DNA from: Candidatus Crickella equi
Lineage (GTDB): Bacteria; Bacillota; Clostridia; Peptostreptococcales; Anaerovoracaceae
DNA length: 37,988 nucleotides
Direction: 5' to 3'
Assembly (NCBI GenBank): GCA_018064755.1
Contig: JAGHUP010000009.1
Coordinates: forward strand, 69,701 to 107,688
Below are positions 7,084-19,961 of this stretch, in pieces; position 1 is the stretch's first letter; every line of letters begins with the position of its first letter. The notes beneath the pieces were generated by a model. The model was not told the origin of the DNA and did not search any database. It saw nothing but the letters and a program-made list of their open reading frames with translations. The position numbers were made by a program, and so were the translations under genes.

Positions 7084-7846
7084 CTGTTGCCTCCTCTATC
7101 GCCTTCTGGCTCTTCTGTGTTACTGTGATATCTCCAAAATTTTCTTCCTGTTCTGCGTCGCATTCCTGATTCTTAATCATTGCTAGCAGTGACATGAACG
7201 AAAGTGTTACGTCGTATCTATCGGCCTCCTCAGGCAGGAGTTCCGTGAATGGAATTCTGCCCTGACCCGCCTTGAATTTCCTCTCGAGAGTTTCTGACAT
7301 ATGCTTGATTCTGTTCTCGATGGATTCCTTCTGACGACGAACTCTCTGATAACGCTTGGTTACTTCCTCGACTTTCTTCTTCTTGGTCAGGAAGAGCATG
7401 AAAGCACTAACCATCTGTTCCTCTGTCGCCTGCAAAATCTCATCCGGATTATCAAGATATTTCGACATATCCTCGGCCGGTTTCTCGTGAATCGCAAGAT
7501 TAAACTCCTCCCGCTGCTGGAGCATTTCGGCAATCTTCTTGGTCTTCACGTATTCCGCAAGACGACCCGCCAGCTCGGCACGTGGGTCTTCCTCAATCAT
7601 GATCTCGCCGGTATCGCTCATACGCGGCAGGAGCATATGCGATTTGAGCCTAATCAGAACCGCAGCAAGCACGATGAACTCACTGGCAACTTCGATGTCC
7701 AGTTCCTCCATCTCCTTCAGATAAGCAATGTATTGTTCTGTAATTTCGCTGACCTTGATGTCGTAGATGTCCATTCTGGCATTCTCCAGAAGGTATACGA
7801 GCAAGTCGAATGGGCCCTCGAATTGGTCAATTCTAACTTTGTACAC
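7073..7846 (-). CDS. scpA: Segregation and condensation protein A
   Basis: The kleisin subunit bridging the SMC heads in the bacterial condensin. The 257 residues start with the family-typical KVRIDQFEGPFDLLVYLLE. VASEFIVLAAVLIRLKSHMLLP follows, the SMC-neck-binding region. The C-terminal winged helix includes RIPFTELLPE and VTLSFMSLLAMIKN. The gene overlaps scpB. The ribosome site is AAGGAG about 8 bases before the ATG. It lies downstream of truA but is separated by a GC-rich 146-base stem-loop. Confidence 0.95.
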   Translation of the reverse strand: MYKVRIDQFEGPFDLLVYLLENARMDIYDIKVSEITEQYIAYLKEMEELDIEVASEFIVLAAVLIRLKSHMLLPRMSDTGEIMIEEDPRAELAGRLAEYVKTKKIAEMLQQREEFNLAIHEKPAEDMSKYLDNPDEILQATEEQMVSAFMLFLTKKKKVEEVTKRYQRVRRQKESIENRIKHMSETLERKFKAGQGRIPFTELLPEEADRYDVTLSFMSLLAMIKNQECDAEQEENFGDITVTQKSQKAIEEATDVQ

Positions 7847-12556: not shown

Positions 12557-12856
12557 ATGGATATTAGACCTGTTTCTGACTTAAGGAATAAATACACGGA
12601 AATCGAGCAGGCGCTCGCTAATACTGATGCGATTTTCCTAACTAAGAATGGTTACGGAGCTGCCGTAATAATGAGCGTCGATGAATATCACAGATTAGTC
12701 GGCAGCACTCCAGTCCCACCAATTAAACGTAATAAAAGAACCAAGAGTGCTAGAGGAATTCTACGCGAATATGCAAATCCGGATATGATTGAGCATGAGC
12801 ATGAAGCAATCAAGCTTCATGTGATGAAAAAATACGGACAAGGAGGGACCCTGTGA
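12557..12856 (+). CDS. Phd/YefM-family antitoxin
   Basis: A 99-residue antitoxin that should bind and neutralise the PIN toxin encoded next and repress the operon. The N-terminal half has the family pattern: DIRPVSDLRNKYTEIEQAL, then DAIFLTKNGYGAAVIMSVDEY. The C-terminal tail, charged and probably disordered before meeting the toxin, would be the neutralising segment. The stop codon overlaps the toxin start as TGATG. This pair is the only plus-strand unit between 1 and 25 kb, which suggests acquisition as a module. Confidence 0.88.
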   Translation: MDIRPVSDLRNKYTEIEQALANTDAIFLTKNGYGAAVIMSVDEYHRLVGSTPVPPIKRNKRTKSARGILREYANPDMIEHEHEAIKLHVMKKYGQGGTL

Positions 12857-13224
12857 TGAACAAGACTTTAGTAGACACTAACGTTATCCTTCGCTATCTA
12901 CTTGATGATAATGAAGACCAAGCGCTTCTTGCCGAACATCTTATTGATGGCGGTGCATGGACTACTCCTGAGGTTCTTGCCGAGGTTACATATGTACTAG
13001 AACATTACTATGGAATTGAAAGAAGAGAAATTGCAACAGCTCTTTTCCAAATTGCTCACAAACTTGATTTTGAGCAGCAAGATGTTTCATTCGAGGCTAT
13101 CAAGGAATACGATGCTACCAATCTCGACTTCGTCGACTGCATGATTGTCGCATATGACAAGCTTAACATCAGTAAAGTGTTCAGTTTTGACAAGGCTCTT
13201 AACAGACGCCTCACCGTAATATAA
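12856..13224 (+). CDS. PIN-domain ribonuclease toxin (VapC-like)
   Basis: A 122-residue PIN-domain RNase expected to cleave RNA when released from its antitoxin. The four acidic metal-binding positions are visible: TLVDTNVILRYLL (Asp), VLAEVTYVLEHYY (Glu), LDFVDCMIVAYDK (Asp) and VFSFDKALNR (Asp). I start at the ATG at 12856, which overlaps the antitoxin stop as TGATG and has AAGGAGGG about 8 bases upstream; a GTG at 12853 is also open. The target RNA cannot be told from sequence. Confidence 0.88.
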   Translation: MNKTLVDTNVILRYLLDDNEDQALLAEHLIDGGAWTTPEVLAEVTYVLEHYYGIERREIATALFQIAHKLDFEQQDVSFEAIKEYDATNLDFVDCMIVAYDKLNISKVFSFDKALNRRLTVI

Positions 13225-13281: not shown

Positions 13282-16200
13282 TTATCTGCTCTTCTTGCAC
13301 TTTGCGTATCTAACGTTAGACCACTGAGTGTAAGCATACTTGCCGTTTGCGAGCTGAACTCTTCCACGAACCTTGTAGTAGTACTTCTTACCCTTCTTGA
13401 GCTTCTTAGCGTTAGTGAAGGTGATAGTCTTAGTTGACTTCTTCTTGTTAGTTACTGTTCCAACCTTCTTGAAGCCACTATTCTTCTTAGTTGATCTGTA
13501 GATCTGATAAGTCTGAACCCTCTTGCCCAGCTCTGTATCATAAGTAACCTTATCGAAGGATACCTTAATCTTGCCGTTAGCATAAGCTTTCAGCTTCTTC
13601 TGTTTTTCAGCAGTCTGGTTAACGAGCATCTTCTGAGCCGTTGATTCCTCAGTTACGATGTAGTCTGAGAAATGATTAGTTGTGAATGAGAAGAATCCGT
13701 TAACATCGTCCTGCTTAGTTACAGCTCTTCTTGTGTACTTGCCGTTATCGTCTCTGTACAGACAAGCAACCTTCTTGCCAGTCAATCCTTCAGGGATATC
13801 TACCTTAACGGTAACCTTTCCACCCTTGAAGTCACCGATTTCAGTCTTAGTTCCTGACTGAACAGCGATAATCTTCAGCTCGTATACATCCTGAGCAACT
13901 TCTTTGGACTTCTCGTCTTCTCTTACCGCCTCAACGATAATTGTTGCGCCTTCAGGTGCCTGCTTAGCAATCTCTTCAGCTGTCTTCTTGTCCAAAGCAA
14001 TCTCTGCTACGTTCGTCTGGATTACGACATTCTGAACAGTCTCGACTTTCGCAAGCTCCTCGATAGCCTTAACAGGGAGTGCTACTTCAGCTTTGGTAAC
14101 AGTCTCAGTTGACTTAGTCTCGGCAACAGCAGCGATAACAACCTCTTCGGACTTGTTAGCCTTAGCTGCCTCAACGATGCTCTCAGCAACCTTCTCGCTT
14201 ACTTCAGCCTTAGCCTCAACAACACCGGACTCGTCCTTCTTAACCTCAACTTCCTTGGAAACATCGATGGAAGTTGTCTCCTCGATCTTCTCAGGAACCG
14301 GATTTTCCTTAGGTGGAGCTACATAAGACTCTTCGTATAATCCTGTCTGTGCATTTAATGTCCAAGTATTCATACCAGCTGAATGAGCTGGAGCTGTAGC
14401 AGAAACAACGTAAGTTACTGGATTTGCCAGTTTGTATACAGAGTATTCTTTTGCTACATATTCACTATTCGGTTGACTAGAATACACACCACCCGAAAGC
14501 GTTACAGTATAATCTTTGCTGTCATCACCAGTTACAGAAGAAAAACGGCCATTCTGAATCGTAAGGCTAGACTTAGTGAATGTGCCTGTCTCTTCAGCAT
14601 AGAGATATATATCGCCAATGGCACCGGTCGTGTTAATAGTAACATGGGCACCATCAGGATAAGCACCTTTCCAAGTATCCACATTAATAGCTTTTACACC
14701 AGATTTTGCTGTGATGCTTGTATTGCCAGTAATATTTACAGTACCATTCGCGAACTCTATTACGGAGTTTTCTCCATAGATGTTGGTTCCATCAATGGTC
14801 ATGTTTTCAAGTGTCAGATTTGCATAGTTCTGGAAGAAACGCTTAATGTTCTTTGCAGGACTAACAGCCTCAGTTAAATTATCTTCTGCAGCCTTAATTG
14901 TGCCGTTCTTGAAAGTTATCGTTTGTCCTTTTTTAAGCTGGAATGCCGCCGTCTGTGTTCCACTAGAGCCTGCACCAGGCTTATTTACCGTATATGTATG
15001 GCCCTTAAAGTCGATGGTGAACGTTTTCCCTGTTTCAACAGAAATACCTGCAGCATTATCAACATCTGCAATCATCTGGATTGTCTCATTGTTCTGTACT
15101 GCTGCGATTGCGTCTGCCAATGTACCGTACTGCTTGTCGCCGATTTGAGCAACCACAGGATATACTTCTGGAAGTGTTACAACCTTGTCGGCATAGTAGA
15201 ATTTACTGCCTAGAACCGTGTATTCCGTTCCGTTGTACTTACATTTCTGATCGATTACTCTTTGTTCTGCCCAAGCGCCATTCGGATTATGAAGCCAAAG
15301 TTTATTGCTATCAATTTTAAAAACAAACTCGTCTATCGTAGCGAGTTGGGTTCCTTCTTCTGGAGCAGCAAGAAGGACTCTGCTATCTTCGTCAGCTAAA
15401 CACTTGTTAAATACAACTCCGTTACTATTCTCATTCAGCAAACCAACCATCAGCGCGAAAGAGTATTCAGCTTTGACAGTGGTATTAGCAAGTGTACAAT
15501 TATTCAGCGTCACAAGGCCTTCGTCATTCTGACCAAGGAATGCACCGGCCTTTGTTGTTGTATCAATCTTACTGTTGCTGACAGTAACATTTTCAAATGT
15601 CACATTGCCATAACTCATGCCGATGATAACAGCAACCTGTGAGCCATTCTGTGCTGTAACAGTTGCCTCATCAAATGTAATATTCTTTACAACTGTGGAA
15701 CCGTGCACATTTGTAATAAATGCTACACCATAGTTATGTGGATTATCACGATCCGTCAATGCTGAAGGTACGCCAAGGCCGGTAATTGTATGATTTTCGC
15801 CATCAATGGTTAAGCCGTCCCAAGTCTCCCAAGCATCAATTGTTGTCCAACTTCTTCCGGTAATATCCATATCATCCTTGATATGAATTTCATAGCCGGA
15901 ATATGCTTTAGCCTTATCCGATTTGCAACTATCAGCAAAGGCAAACAAACCGTCTGCAGTATAGATGTTGACGAGTTTCTGGTCAGCGATAACTTCCCAT
16001 TGTTTTTTTACCATCCATTTATTGTTCTCTTCGGTTACAATAGATTTCGGAGAGAGGAGATTATCACCGTAGAATTCTTCAAAAGTACCACTAACAATCT
16101 TATTATTGTCATCTATCTCTACATTGCTTCCAACAGCGGCACTACCGGTATAGTTGCTTCCGCCATTTATTTTATACTCGTCCCAGCAATAATAGAACTT

Positions 16201-16956
16201 GTTGTCACCTGTTGTAGTGCTTTCAACAGCTGCGGTAGATGCGAAAGCACCCTCAAACGTACAATCGCTGGCAATCACAGTGATAGGGCTGTAACGAGTG
16301 TCTAACATAAACGCATTTTTATTAACAGTGTTGCCAGTAAATTTACAACTTTTTGCGATAACCGTTACAGGATTAGTGTCGCCATCCTTGGCAATCTTAA
16401 CTGCCTTGCCGTTTTCATTGCCTGTAAATGTGCAATTGCTCAGCTCAACAAAATCGCTGCCATACACATAAAGGCTATATTTGTTTGCATCTACAAAACT
16501 GCAGTCTTTCATAACAAGACTTTCAGCATATGTCCAAAACTCGCCCTTGATGCTACAGCTATTTATCGTCAGGGACGGACAATTATAAAAACCTCTGTTG
16601 TTAAACTGTGCACCAAAATCAAGTGTCAGACCCTCAAAGTTTGCGCCTTTTGGGATATCACTTACATTGCTACTGCCCGAGCAATCAAGCGTGACACCAC
16701 CAGCTGTTCCCTTGATTGTAATGTTATTCGGAATGTTCGGAATCTTGTAGGTTCCAGCTATGATTATTTCAACGGTATCACCAGCATTTGCTGCTTCAAC
16801 CGCATCTGCCAGCGTGTCATAATGTGTTGTTCCAATTTTCGCCTCATGATTACATCCTCCTGGGCAATTCTCCTGCGGAGTCGCAAACGCCATGGCTGGC
16901 ATGAAGCTTACCATCATCAATGCTGACATGAGAATGGCAAATAATTTCTTACGCAT
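13282..16956 (-). CDS. Large secreted right-handed beta-helix protein with C-terminal Fn3-like domain
   Basis: A 1224-residue exported protein. Residues 1-25 form a signal peptide (KK, a hydrophobic core, cleavage after AMAFA). A Cys pair, CPGGC, follows. Residues about 45-300 and 360-860 are rich in short strands with N, T and G turns, as in right-handed parallel beta-helices of the pectate-lyase/InlK-like type. Each half opens with a similar block, YDTLADAVEAANAGDTVEII and YGTLADAIAAVQNNETIQMI (near 46 and 609), suggesting internal duplication. Residues about 880-970 are a Lys/Glu/Val-rich stretch. The C-terminus, from about 1115, resembles a fibronectin III-like domain with many lysines (KKGKKYYYKVRGR, then QWSNVRYAK). 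No LPXTG or membrane anchor is visible, so the Lys-rich end may bind the wall. Adhesin or carbohydrate-binding function is inference. Confidence 0.8.
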   Translation of the reverse strand: MRKKLFAILMSALMMVSFMPAMAFATPQENCPGGCNHEAKIGTTHYDTLADAVEAANAGDTVEIIIAGTYKIPNIPNNITIKGTAGGVTLDCSGSSNVSDIPKGANFEGLTLDFGAQFNNRGFYNCPSLTINSCSIKGEFWTYAESLVMKDCSFVDANKYSLYVYGSDFVELSNCTFTGNENGKAVKIAKDGDTNPVTVIAKSCKFTGNTVNKNAFMLDTRYSPITVIASDCTFEGAFASTAAVESTTTGDNKFYYCWDEYKINGGSNYTGSAAVGSNVEIDDNNKIVSGTFEEFYGDNLLSPKSIVTEENNKWMVKKQWEVIADQKLVNIYTADGLFAFADSCKSDKAKAYSGYEIHIKDDMDITGRSWTTIDAWETWDGLTIDGENHTITGLGVPSALTDRDNPHNYGVAFITNVHGSTVVKNITFDEATVTAQNGSQVAVIIGMSYGNVTFENVTVSNSKIDTTTKAGAFLGQNDEGLVTLNNCTLANTTVKAEYSFALMVGLLNENSNGVVFNKCLADEDSRVLLAAPEEGTQLATIDEFVFKIDSNKLWLHNPNGAWAEQRVIDQKCKYNGTEYTVLGSKFYYADKVVTLPEVYPVVAQIGDKQYGTLADAIAAVQNNETIQMIADVDNAAGISVETGKTFTIDFKGHTYTVNKPGAGSSGTQTAAFQLKKGQTITFKNGTIKAAEDNLTEAVSPAKNIKRFFQNYANLTLENMTIDGTNIYGENSVIEFANGTVNITGNTSITAKSGVKAINVDTWKGAYPDGAHVTINTTGAIGDIYLYAEETGTFTKSSLTIQNGRFSSVTGDDSKDYTVTLSGGVYSSQPNSEYVAKEYSVYKLANPVTYVVSATAPAHSAGMNTWTLNAQTGLYEESYVAPPKENPVPEKIEETTSIDVSKEVEVKKDESGVVEAKAEVSEKVAESIVEAAKANKSEEVVIAAVAETKSTETVTKAEVALPVKAIEELAKVETVQNVVIQTNVAEIALDKKTAEEIAKQAPEGATIIVEAVREDEKSKEVAQDVYELKIIAVQSGTKTEIGDFKGGKVTVKVDIPEGLTGKKVACLYRDDNGKYTRRAVTKQDDVNGFFSFTTNHFSDYIVTEESTAQKMLVNQTAEKQKKLKAYANGKIKVSFDKVTYDTELGKRVQTYQIYRSTKKNSGFKKVGTVTNKKKSTKTITFTNAKKLKKGKKYYYKVRGRVQLANGKYAYTQWSNVRYAKCKKSR

Positions 16957-17350: not shown

Positions 17351-17512
17351 TTATCTTGATAATCCGTGCTTAACTCTGTCTTCAACTTCAGCTCTCTTAC
17401 CGTTGTTGAATCTGTCGAGAGTTCCTACGAGGTAACCAGTGATTCTTCTGATTCTCTCGAATCCTACGTCTTCTCCAACCTGTCCGTTTACAACCTTAAC
17501 GTTATTGTTCAT
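17351..17512 (-). CDS. Separate glycyl-radical domain of class III ribonucleotide reductase
   Basis: A 53-residue protein that corresponds to the normal C-terminal end of NrdD. The sequence includes GFERIRRITGYLVGTLDRF and then NNGKRAEVEDRVKHG. The Gly of RRITGY is the expected radical site, and the RFNxGKRAE and DRVKH text is standard at the end of Gram-positive NrdD. It has its own strong ribosome site (AAGGAGG, about 6 bases before the ATG), only 10 bases after the stop of the 758-residue NrdD part. The upstream protein lacks this motif, so an active enzyme needs this piece. It is comparable in idea to the glycyl-radical spare part GrcA/YfiD of pyruvate formate-lyase. Confidence 0.85.
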   Translation of the reverse strand: MNNNVKVVNGQVGEDVGFERIRRITGYLVGTLDRFNNGKRAEVEDRVKHGLSR

Positions 17513-17522
17513 AACATCCTCC

Positions 17523-19799
17523 TTATCTATTGCAATCGCATGGAACTGGTACTGAAGGGTACTTCATTCTCAGCTCATTGAGTCTCTCGATTGAGAGGGC
17601 TTCGCCTTCTCTTCTGCCGCATCTTGGGCAAACATCATCGATAACTCCTGTGTATCCGCAAACAGGGTCTCTGTCTACTGGATGGTTAACTGAACCGTAT
17701 CCGATACCAACTTCCTTCATGTATCTGATAACTGACTCGAATGCTTCTGGATTCTTAGCTGTATCGCCGTCGAGCTCTACATAGCTGATGTGTCCTGCAT
17801 TAGTCAGGTTGTGGTAAGGTGCTTCAATTGCCAGCTTGTCGAATGCGCTGATTGGATAGTATACAGGAATATGGAATGAGTTAGTGTAGTAATCTCTATC
17901 TGTTACTCCTGGAATCTTACCGTACTTCTCAGCGTCGATCTTAACAAATCTTCCGGAGAGTCCTTCTGCAGGTGTTGCGAGGAGAGTGAAGTTCAGTCCA
18001 GTCTCCTGGCTCTTAGCATCGCAGAACTGTCTCATGTGCTCGATTACTTCGTAAGCTTTCTTTCTTACTTCCTCGTCCTCACCGTGGTGCTTGCCTGTAA
18101 GAGCCTTCATTGTCTCAGCAAGTCCGATGAATCCGATTGAAAGTGTTCCGTGCTTGAGGATCTCAGCAACGCTGTCATCTGGTCCAATTCCTTCTGAATC
18201 AATCCAGATTCCCTGTCCCATCAGGAACGGATAGTTGCGGCCCTTCTTAGTGCACTGAATCTTGAATCTGTGCAGCAGCTGTCTTGCAACGAGGTCAAGC
18301 ATTTCATCGAGTTTCTTATAGAATACGTCGAAGTCTCTGTTAGCCTCGATACCAAGTCTTGGCAGGTTGATGGATGTGAATGAGAGGTTACCTCTTCCGC
18401 ATACTACCTGCTTGCTCTTGTCATAGTTGTTAGCCATAACTCTTGTACGGCATCCCATGTAAGCAACTTCTGAATTGTAATCGCCTTCCTTGTAGAATGG
18501 CAGATTGAATGGTGCATCCAGGAAGCTGAAGTTAGGGAACAGTCTCTTAGCTGAGCATCTGATTGCGATCTTGTAGAGGTCGTAGTTAGGATCTTCAGGG
18601 TTAAAGTTTACCCCCTCCTTAACCTTGAAGATCTGTACTGGGAAGATTGGAGTTTCTCCATTACCCATTCCGGCCTCTGTTGCGAGCAGGAGGTTCTTAA
18701 TTACCATTCTACCTTCAGGCGTCGTATCAGTTCCGTAGTTAACGGATGAGAATGGAACCTGCGCACCTGCTCTTGAGTTCATTGTATTGAGGTTATGAAT
18801 AAGAGCTTCCATTGCCTGGTAAGTCATCTTATCTGTCTTAGCGAAAGCAGCTTCTGCAGCCTGCTTGTTAAAGCCGACTACCTGCTCTCTTGTCATGCCA
18901 AAACGCTGATCCGCATTGTCGTACCACTTTCCGAGTTCCTCGCCGAATGTTTTGGCATTAGCGATTGTTGGAGTAGCAGCTTCTTTTCTGATCTTCTTGG
19001 AGATCATCTCAGCGTCTGTGTATGAGAAGTTCATCTTAGCAGCGATGATGTCTGTCAGTGCGGAGTAGTACTCCTTGATGAATGTTCTTGCAACGCCAGG
19101 AGCCATTGCGTAGTCAAAGTTAGGAACTGACTGTCCACCGTGCATCTCGTTCTGGTTAGCCTGAATTGCGATGCAAGCGAGGGAAGCATAGCTCATGATT
19201 GACTGTGGCTCTCTCAGATATCCGTGACCTGTGCAGAAACCGTTCTCGAACAGCTTGATGAGGTCAATCTGGCAGCAAGTCTCAGTAAGCATGTAGAAAT
19301 CCTTATCGTGGATGTGGATGTCTCCATTGATGTGAGCTTTGGCAATATCTTTAGGAAGAACATAATTGTCTACGAAATACTTAGCTCCCTCAGAACCATA
19401 CTTGAGCATAGTTCCCATGGAAGTATCTCCATCAATGTTAGCGTTCTCGCGCTTGATGTCTGCATCCTTGGAATAAGAATAAGTAAGTTCGTTATAGATG
19501 TTCATCAGATCGGACTCAGCCTCTCTGATCTTAGCGTGCTCCGCACGATAGAGGATGTATGCCTTAGCAGTCTTCTCATAATCGTACTTGATGAGCATAC
19601 GCTCTACAGTATCCTGTACTGCTTCTACTGTGCATGTCTCGCCGTCCAGCTGCTCTACTACCTTTCTTGTGAGGTAAGTAAAGTCGATGCTTGTCATCTT
19701 CTCGCCTTCAACTGCCTTGTTAGCAGCATAAATCGCATTGAAGATCTTGGACTCGTCGAAGACAACTTCCTTTCCGTCTCTCTTAATGATAGTTCTCAT
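17523..19799 (-). CDS. nrdD: Anaerobic ribonucleoside-triphosphate reductase, large part lacking the glycyl-radical tail
   Basis: Reduces ribonucleotides to deoxyribonucleotides without oxygen. Residues 1-90 form an ATP-cone (MRTIIKRDGKEVVFDESKI) for allosteric control. The body has family text such as INGDIHIHDKDFYMLTETCC, NQNEMHGGQSVPNFDYAMAPG and MNSRAGAQVPFSSVNYGTDT. The end, VCGYTGVIDDVCPRCGRREG, is the zinc ribbon, but the first Cys of the usual four is Asp (RDPVCG). The last residues, PCDCNR, add a Cys pair. The protein then stops (TAA) before the glycyl-radical loop, which is encoded separately 10 bases on. An SD of GGGGA precedes the ATG. It is controlled by an NrdR-type promoter. 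Confidence 0.95.
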   Translation of the reverse strand: MRTIIKRDGKEVVFDESKIFNAIYAANKAVEGEKMTSIDFTYLTRKVVEQLDGETCTVEAVQDTVERMLIKYDYEKTAKAYILYRAEHAKIREAESDLMNIYNELTYSYSKDADIKRENANIDGDTSMGTMLKYGSEGAKYFVDNYVLPKDIAKAHINGDIHIHDKDFYMLTETCCQIDLIKLFENGFCTGHGYLREPQSIMSYASLACIAIQANQNEMHGGQSVPNFDYAMAPGVARTFIKEYYSALTDIIAAKMNFSYTDAEMISKKIRKEAATPTIANAKTFGEELGKWYDNADQRFGMTREQVVGFNKQAAEAAFAKTDKMTYQAMEALIHNLNTMNSRAGAQVPFSSVNYGTDTTPEGRMVIKNLLLATEAGMGNGETPIFPVQIFKVKEGVNFNPEDPNYDLYKIAIRCSAKRLFPNFSFLDAPFNLPFYKEGDYNSEVAYMGCRTRVMANNYDKSKQVVCGRGNLSFTSINLPRLGIEANRDFDVFYKKLDEMLDLVARQLLHRFKIQCTKKGRNYPFLMGQGIWIDSEGIGPDDSVAEILKHGTLSIGFIGLAETMKALTGKHHGEDEEVRKKAYEVIEHMRQFCDAKSQETGLNFTLLATPAEGLSGRFVKIDAEKYGKIPGVTDRDYYTNSFHIPVYYPISAFDKLAIEAPYHNLTNAGHISYVELDGDTAKNPEAFESVIRYMKEVGIGYGSVNHPVDRDPVCGYTGVIDDVCPRCGRREGEALSIERLNELRMKYPSVPVPCDCNR

Positions 19800-19874: not shown

Positions 19875-19913
19875 TATATAAATCGGCGCGCATGAAAGAT
19901 ATTGCCCCGCCGA

Positions 19914-19961
19914 ACACTACATATTGTATCTCATGGCTAATTGGGTGTCAATATGTTGTTA
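19914..19961 (-). promoter_or_regulatory. nrdD promoter overlapped by two NrdR-type boxes
   Basis: The minus strand has TTGACA (19946-19951), a 17-base spacer and TACAAT (19923-19928). Two 16-mers that fit the NrdR consensus start at 19914 (ACACTACATATTGTAT) and at 19946 (TGTCAATATGTTGTTA). Their starts are 32 bases apart, about three helical turns, as known for NrdR. One covers the -10 and one the -35, so binding of NrdR with dATP should block transcription. The leader to the nrdD ATG is about 115 bases. Confidence 0.8.

Follow-up and report, generated by a model that had tools for sequence, protein, structure and literature searches.

In Candidatus Crickella equi, a member of the Anaerovoracaceae, the class III ribonucleotide reductase (RNR) is divided between two adjacent genes: the catalytic chain, NrdD, ends without the glycyl-radical loop, and a 53-residue protein encoded just downstream carries it. 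Both genes lie in a 37,988-nucleotide stretch of contig JAGHUP010000009.1 (assembly GCA_018064755.1), referred to here as the window. By the comparisons presented below, the two-gene split is real and does not reflect a frameshift in the window. The same arrangement recurs in many relatives, and stand-alone loop genes are also found in conjugation modules and phages. We consider it quite likely that the two products together form a class III RNR of two polypeptides, the smaller of which is an exchangeable carrier of the glycyl radical, a logic resembling that of GrcA.

A class III RNR gene pair without a built-in loop

The sequence-only reading of this DNA had claimed that the 758-residue NrdD ends after its zinc ribbon, lacking the RxTGY loop, and that a 53-codon gene 10 nt downstream, with its own AAGGAGG site, encodes exactly that loop. 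Profile searches bore out both claims. The large chain comprises an ATP-cone, the catalytic barrel, and a zinc ribbon; besides the ATP-cone, it covers positions 1-531 of the 562 positions of PF13597 (NRDD), and its NRDD domain scores 634.6 bits against a curated cutoff of 26.2, as expected of a class III RNR. The small protein matches positions 533-562 of the same profile with 33.9 bits (cutoff, 26.2). Thus, the loop is missing from the large chain and sits on the small one; no RxxGY glycyl-radical loop is present at the C terminus of the 758-aa chain. The Prevotella copri enzyme gives the same picture: P. copri NrdD 8p23 can be aligned with the large chain only as far as the zinc ribbon, and a profile built from 13 small proteins matches 8p23 residues 708-738, the radical loop of that enzyme (RITGYLVG). 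Gly26 of the small chain is the candidate radical glycine, on which the radical would be formed. At the junction, the two genes are separated by 10 nt (17513-17522) and are read in different frames, and the AAGGAGG site of the small gene starts inside the nrdD stop codon (tAAGGAGGatgttATG).

Features of the split class III RNR in the window (positions are those of the 37,988-nt stretch)
Feature	Position	Strand	Basis
Large subunit NrdD, 758 aa, TAA stop	17523..19799	-	Open reading frame and PF13597
Codons of the 25-residue C-terminal tail of NrdD (ALSIERLNELRMKYPSVPVPCDCNR, residues 734-758)	17526..17600	-	Comparison of split NrdDs
Junction: nrdD stop codon, AAGGAGG ribosome site, spacer	17513..17525	-	Sequence reading
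Small subunit, 53-aa glycyl-radical protein	17351..17512	-	PF13597 positions 533-562
Codon of Gly26 (RRITGYLVG), candidate radical glycine	17435..17437	-	Alignment with the RITGY loop of 8p23
nrdG, radical-SAM activase, 177 aa	11646..12179	-	TIGR02491, 150.5 bits (cutoff, 126.1)

Several details of the locus deserve mention. The first zinc-ribbon cysteine is apparently replaced by Asp711 (DRDPVCGY..CPxC; window 17619-17669) in split and fused NrdDs of this group; D711, C714, C724, and C727 are invariant across its 33 aligned rows. A gene for a probable surface protein of 1,224 aa (13282-16956, minus strand) separates the small gene from nrdG, an order unlike the tight nrdD-small gene-nrdG arrangement of related loci, 55 of 67 of which have an nrdG match starting no more than 250 nt downstream. 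Between the surface-protein gene and nrdG, two small plus-strand ORFs (12560-13224) resemble, by eye, an antitoxin and a PIN-domain toxin. Upstream of nrdD, two sites at 19911-19960 look by eye like an NrdR box pair.

The host probably has no RNR other than the split pair. The sequence-only reading had held that another complete nrdD in the genome, with this pair inactive, would count against the split; none was found in the assembly (82% complete), which contains one large NrdD only. Nor did this assembly yield a match to PF02867, the profile for class I/II RNRs, NrdJ-type enzymes included. The same profile matched none of eight near-complete congeners (93-99%), so that the pair is probably the sole RNR in these genomes as well. 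In genus g69, both split genomes tested (G108 and G177) gave a weak, partial PF02867 match, so that NrdD may have company from another RNR there.

Stand-alone loops in cells, conjugative elements, and phages

We propose that the small chain would dock on NrdD in trans, bringing Gly26 next to the catalytic cysteine of the large chain, and that NrdG would install the radical on the small chain, probably only when this is bound to the large one, by analogy with YfiD and cleaved pyruvate formate-lyase. In glycyl radical enzymes, oxygen cuts the chain at the radical. Because the loop is the part that oxygen destroys, a damaged enzyme could be renewed by swapping the 53-aa part and not the whole large chain, and further copies in cells, conjugative elements, and phages would most simply serve such renewal. 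Docking of a free piece has one structural point against it: the radical domain of StNrdD is described as ordered in the barrel (PMC12662201).

The genome of Ca. Crickella equi has a second gene for a 53-aa protein (C10:24857-24952), 89% identical to the window copy, and these two small genes hold the only NrdD loops found there. The second copy is flanked by a gene for a Crp/Fnr-type regulator, which ends 12 nt upstream, and by a rubrerythrin gene, which starts 20 nt downstream; the three share one strand. Within the genus, we examined 22 extra copies from 12 genomes; some are near-identical and hence not all are independent. Eighteen have genes of a conjugation module within four genes (VirD4-like, pilin-like, VirB6-like, DUF5688, PrgI, and VirB4-like; these families were assigned on one locus, at which pilin and VirB6 fall below the Pfam cutoffs). 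The copies with no such genes at this distance are L063, L064, L072, and L076, and 3 of the 22 lack both a conjugation module and any evident link to stress in their surroundings. For 14 extra copies, 13 of them in conjugation modules, 49 of 91 pairs were usable; dN/dS was below 0.5 in every one, with a median of 0.123.

In the wider family, stand-alone loops coexist with fused NrdDs. When 148 genomes of the family were searched with the 53-aa protein, 75 matched. As classified by open-frame length, 32 of these have a long (NrdD) frame together with a stand-alone frame, 25 have a long frame only, 13 have short frames only (at least two of which, G158 and G176, are NrdD pieces at a contig end or gap), and 5 have an adjacent split; 25 of the 57 genomes with a fused match thus yielded no stand-alone copy. 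A recurrent form, which we call class A, is ∼95 aa long, with a conserved first domain of ∼50 aa followed by the glycyl-radical loop. Four of these proteins were scanned against Pfam and NCBIfam, and their first domain gave no significant match. Among 198 genomes of the order, full-length class A proteins were seen only in Anaerovoracaceae. In a class-wide sample of 128 genomes, stand-alone frames of ≤104 aa were present in five, one of which is the host's own, and two further frames, of 223 and 265 aa, are candidates; the trait is thus patchy.

Two unusual arrangements were noted among these genomes and loci. A stand-alone loop ORF with a 101-aa frame (G467:C10:30578-31020) adjoins an 862-aa NrdD frame that has its own loop, possibly an early stage of the split. 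At L137, L349, and L357, NrdD is of another type, ∼800 aa long, whose C-terminal part looks by eye like glutaredoxin (CPNC motif).

A scan of IMG/VR with class A returned at least 338 relatives, of which 80 were kept. A stand-alone loop frame of 56 to 156 aa was read in 74 of the 80, one of them truncated by a contig end, and four of the remaining six show as stand-alone when the whole record is searched. Forty-two phage records were searched whole; they were chosen from the 80, are mostly the longer ones, and may be fragments. None of the 42 contains a fused NrdD: 37 have the stand-alone piece only and no NrdD, and 5 encode a large NrdD that ends at profile position 533-539, with the piece within ∼1.5 kb. 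At 11 of these loci, 44 proteins were selected among 106 neighboring ORFs and compared with PHROG families; the matches include integrase (3 members), endolysin (3), tape measure protein (2), and RNA polymerase beta subunit (2) families. A search of 50,697 annotated phage records with two queries detected the loop in 14 to 15 of them, mostly without annotation. Eggerthella phage EL753P1 (L315) encodes a 952-aa NrdD without a radical loop, and a loop-like match lies just downstream (record positions 7092-7172).

These contexts support the comparison with GrcA drawn in the sequence-only reading, since a copy lies beside rubrerythrin, stand-alone pieces accompany fused NrdDs, and mobile elements and phages have copies of their own. 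Relatives, conjugative elements, and phages with stand-alone pieces look like a built-in spare-part system. We lean towards a broader proposal, an exchangeable radical-subunit economy in which hosts, conjugative elements, and phages carry a plug of 50 to 100 aa for NrdD in trans; several lineages would have lost their own loop and become dependent on the plug, and a mobile element could repair or take over the dNTP synthesis of its host by supplying the radical alone.

The purpose of the extra copies can be read differently. The two-chain enzyme may be real and the extra and mobile copies may serve dosage or regulation, giving more dNTPs or an escape from dATP control, and not oxygen repair; we regard this as possible though somewhat doubtful. 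Phages and conjugation modules, which require dNTPs to replicate or to be transferred, contain many of the copies; class A proteins have a conserved domain in addition to the loop; and dATP is reported to mobilize the radical domain of P. copri NrdD (PMC11226230). The copy adjoining the rubrerythrin gene, however, speaks against this reading, and PMC12662201 describes the StNrdD radical domain as ordered with dATP and ATP alike, so that the two papers disagree on whether dATP frees this domain. That the phage and conjugative copies are decoys or inhibitors, displacing or quenching the host radical loop, seems improbable to us: the 37 records with a loop and no NrdD would fit such a role, but 25 aligned phage proteins retain, single changes aside, both the RITGYLVG loop and the K..E...RVKH segment after it, and the 5 records described above pair the same kind of protein with a loop-less NrdD of their own.

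Recurrence of the split and decay of the built-in loop

A search of 35 congeners found a large NrdD piece with the loop on a piece of its own in 29, nothing but a divergent fused NrdD in 2 (G031 and G034), and no match in 4. The split was read at the sequence level in 25 of the 29 and rests on coordinates in G001, G007, G012, and G032. Two genomes, G022 and G027, were initially counted as fused by their open frames; this assignment was rejected on reading the sequences, which are split. The sequence-only reading had suggested a search of related genomes for NrdDs that end before the loop and have a small ORF next to it. A scan of GTDB genomes with the conserved NrdD tail yielded at least 294 relatives, and a loop-less NrdD with a downstream loop ORF is present at all 80 loci kept, the best 80 of these matches. 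They span Mogibacterium-type metagenome-assembled genomes (MAGs), Lachnospiraceae, Oscillospiraceae, Commensalibacter, and one Spirochaetaceae bin.

Constraint on the two genes is similar. Among 21 sequences of the window's group (210 pairs), dN/dS has a median of 0.043 in the small gene (201 pairs usable), 0.054 in the nrdD core (148 usable), and 0.053 in the last 30 nrdD codons (114 usable), with dS at 1.1 to 1.3 in these comparisons. By this measure, the small gene, the tail, and the core are all under purifying selection.

The argument of the sequence-only reading for a real split and against a frameshift has held up, on the grounds of recurrence, relative frame, ribosome sites, purifying selection, gene order, and the lack of any other RNR match in the host assembly and the eight congeners. 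Programmed frameshifting or stop-codon bypass that fuses both frames into an ordinary NrdD is very improbable. The genes are adjacent, with 10 nt between them in the window, and at one locus (L224) their frames overlap, but the frame of the small gene relative to nrdD is random (24/22/21 among the 67 loci with both genes complete), and the gap, L224 excepted, ranges from 2 to 227 nt, with a median of 84 nt. With L224 left out, 65 of 66 small genes have a ribosome-like site ahead of a candidate ATG, against 15 expected from a matched control of random sites given as many tries; a site precedes the first ATG in 57 of the 66. Furthermore, unlinked copies of the loop gene exist. A pseudogene or an assembly error of a metagenome bin can be dismissed as next to impossible: most kept loci derive from MAGs and the large NrdD match of G012 has internal stops, but the arrangement is the same in named strains (Fournierella massiliensis An912, Lachnoclostridium sp. 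An196, and Eubacterium sp. An11) and in a Subdoligranulum variabile record, and the median dN/dS is ∼0.05.

Some loci have features of their own. The nrdD tail of L224 (Coprococcus catus VPIC661) is longer, its end is overlapped by the small frame, and no ATG follows the nrdD stop; either a frameshift fusion or an overlapping start could account for this. Nine of the 67 loci have sequences like a DnaA box (TTWTNCACA) in the nrdD-small gene interval, mostly two or three at each (the L155-L179 group), and the small gene may be under separate control linked to replication at such loci.

A quick tree of 102 NrdD cores, from which 19 of 121 rows (near-copies) were omitted before counting, implies at least two changes of state between split and fused; the tree has long branches and no sure root. 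In this tree, the split nrdD of Commensalibacter (Acetobacteraceae; L220 and L232) is placed among Firmicutes rows, probably as a result of horizontal transfer. A mixed MAFFT alignment of small-only and large rows was dropped, since the small rows showed 11-23% identity and were judged to be misplaced.

The C-terminal tail of the large chain is conserved among split NrdDs and was not seen in the fused NrdDs that we read, which makes it a candidate docking element. We also considered the tail as a relic of the lost loop and rejected this idea. Of 59 distinct tails, 58 have an E-R/K-L motif at a distance of 10 residues from the last zinc cysteine, and E/D-R-I is found at a comparable distance (9-11) in 31 fused segments; the other columns do not outscore shuffled ones, since 62 of 300 shuffles reached an equal score, so position is the one feature in favor of a relic. 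A terminal cysteine pair (CDC, CGC, or CC; window 17526-17540 and L155-L234) is present in many split NrdD tails and missing from others. This terminal pair could be a redox pair, like those at the C termini of class I/II RNRs.

The best sequence evidence for action in trans comes from NrdDs in which the built-in loop has decayed. Six of 12 genomes checked (G141, G193, G343, G136, G340, and G064) have an NrdD with a truncated or decayed loop. The G340 frame stops shortly after ITGY, and the glycine is gone in the other five. In all six, a frame resembling nrdG follows the decayed nrdD, and another contig encodes a class A protein that is intact. Two NrdDs that share a common truncated end differ by a dN of 0.029 and a dS of 2.3 (dN/dS, 0.013; dS is near saturation in this pair, with a pS of 0.72), a ratio indicating that the loop-less NrdD stayed under selection. 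These genomes have other reductases as well: G340 and G064 encode a second, divergent fused NrdD, and G141, G193, G343, and G136 have a class I/II RNR and no second NrdD. A decayed-looking nrdD was also seen in G298.

Comparison with known systems

The proteins described here amount to a large natural set resembling spare parts, for an enzyme that is probably its host's only RNR. The set includes lineages in which the separate piece would now be obligatory, as well as versions from phages and conjugative elements. With such small proteins, radical installation, transfer between chains, recognition by NrdG, and recovery from oxygen become directly accessible to experiment, and hundreds of entries from anaerobes and phages (at least 294 and at least 338 matches, respectively) would have their annotation corrected.

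Among NCBIfam, Pfam, and PHROG families over or near significance, the small proteins hit only those of whole NrdDs, and always at the C-terminal end. Among glycyl-radical families they match PF13597 only; PF01228 (Gly_radical) gave no match at E values up to 1 with the two 53-aa copies and up to 5 with four class A proteins. In the openly accessible literature searched, which takes in few subscription papers and preprints, we found neither a class III RNR whose loop is encoded by a second gene nor a spare part described for NrdD.

Standard class III RNRs, such as those of P. copri 8P23, S. thermophilus, and T4, have in common with the system described here the catalytic chain, ATP-cone, zinc ribbon, NrdG, and the RITGY loop. 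They differ in that here the loop is on a second polypeptide and the large chain has an extra conserved C-terminal tail. Other RNRs offer partial parallels. In class I enzymes, the radical is likewise on a separate subunit, NrdB or NrdF (PMC3019208), but this is an unrelated protein with a tyrosyl radical and long-range transfer. The catalytic chain of the class II enzyme NrdJa/NrdJb is also divided between two genes (PMC4520616 and PMC9669993), but the class and the split point are different. Phage nrdD genes can be in several pieces as well, but the breaks are due to introns or inteins or are unexplained (PMC3653736); that paper on split phage nrdD contains no word beginning with "glycyl."

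The closest precedents are GrcA/YfiD and T4 Y06I, spare parts for pyruvate formate-lyase (PFL), which are likewise small, stand-alone glycyl-radical ends found in hosts and phages. According to PMC8683613 (2021), only YfiD and Y06I had been validated as spare parts, those for other enzymes being deemed possible; YfiD restores its oxygen-cleaved partner, and its activation requires cleaved PFL and takes place only in complex with it. In contrast to GrcA/YfiD, the small proteins described here are built on the radical loop of NrdD (PF13597), and in the genome of Ca. Crickella equi they provide the sole NrdD loops found, not spares beside a built-in one.
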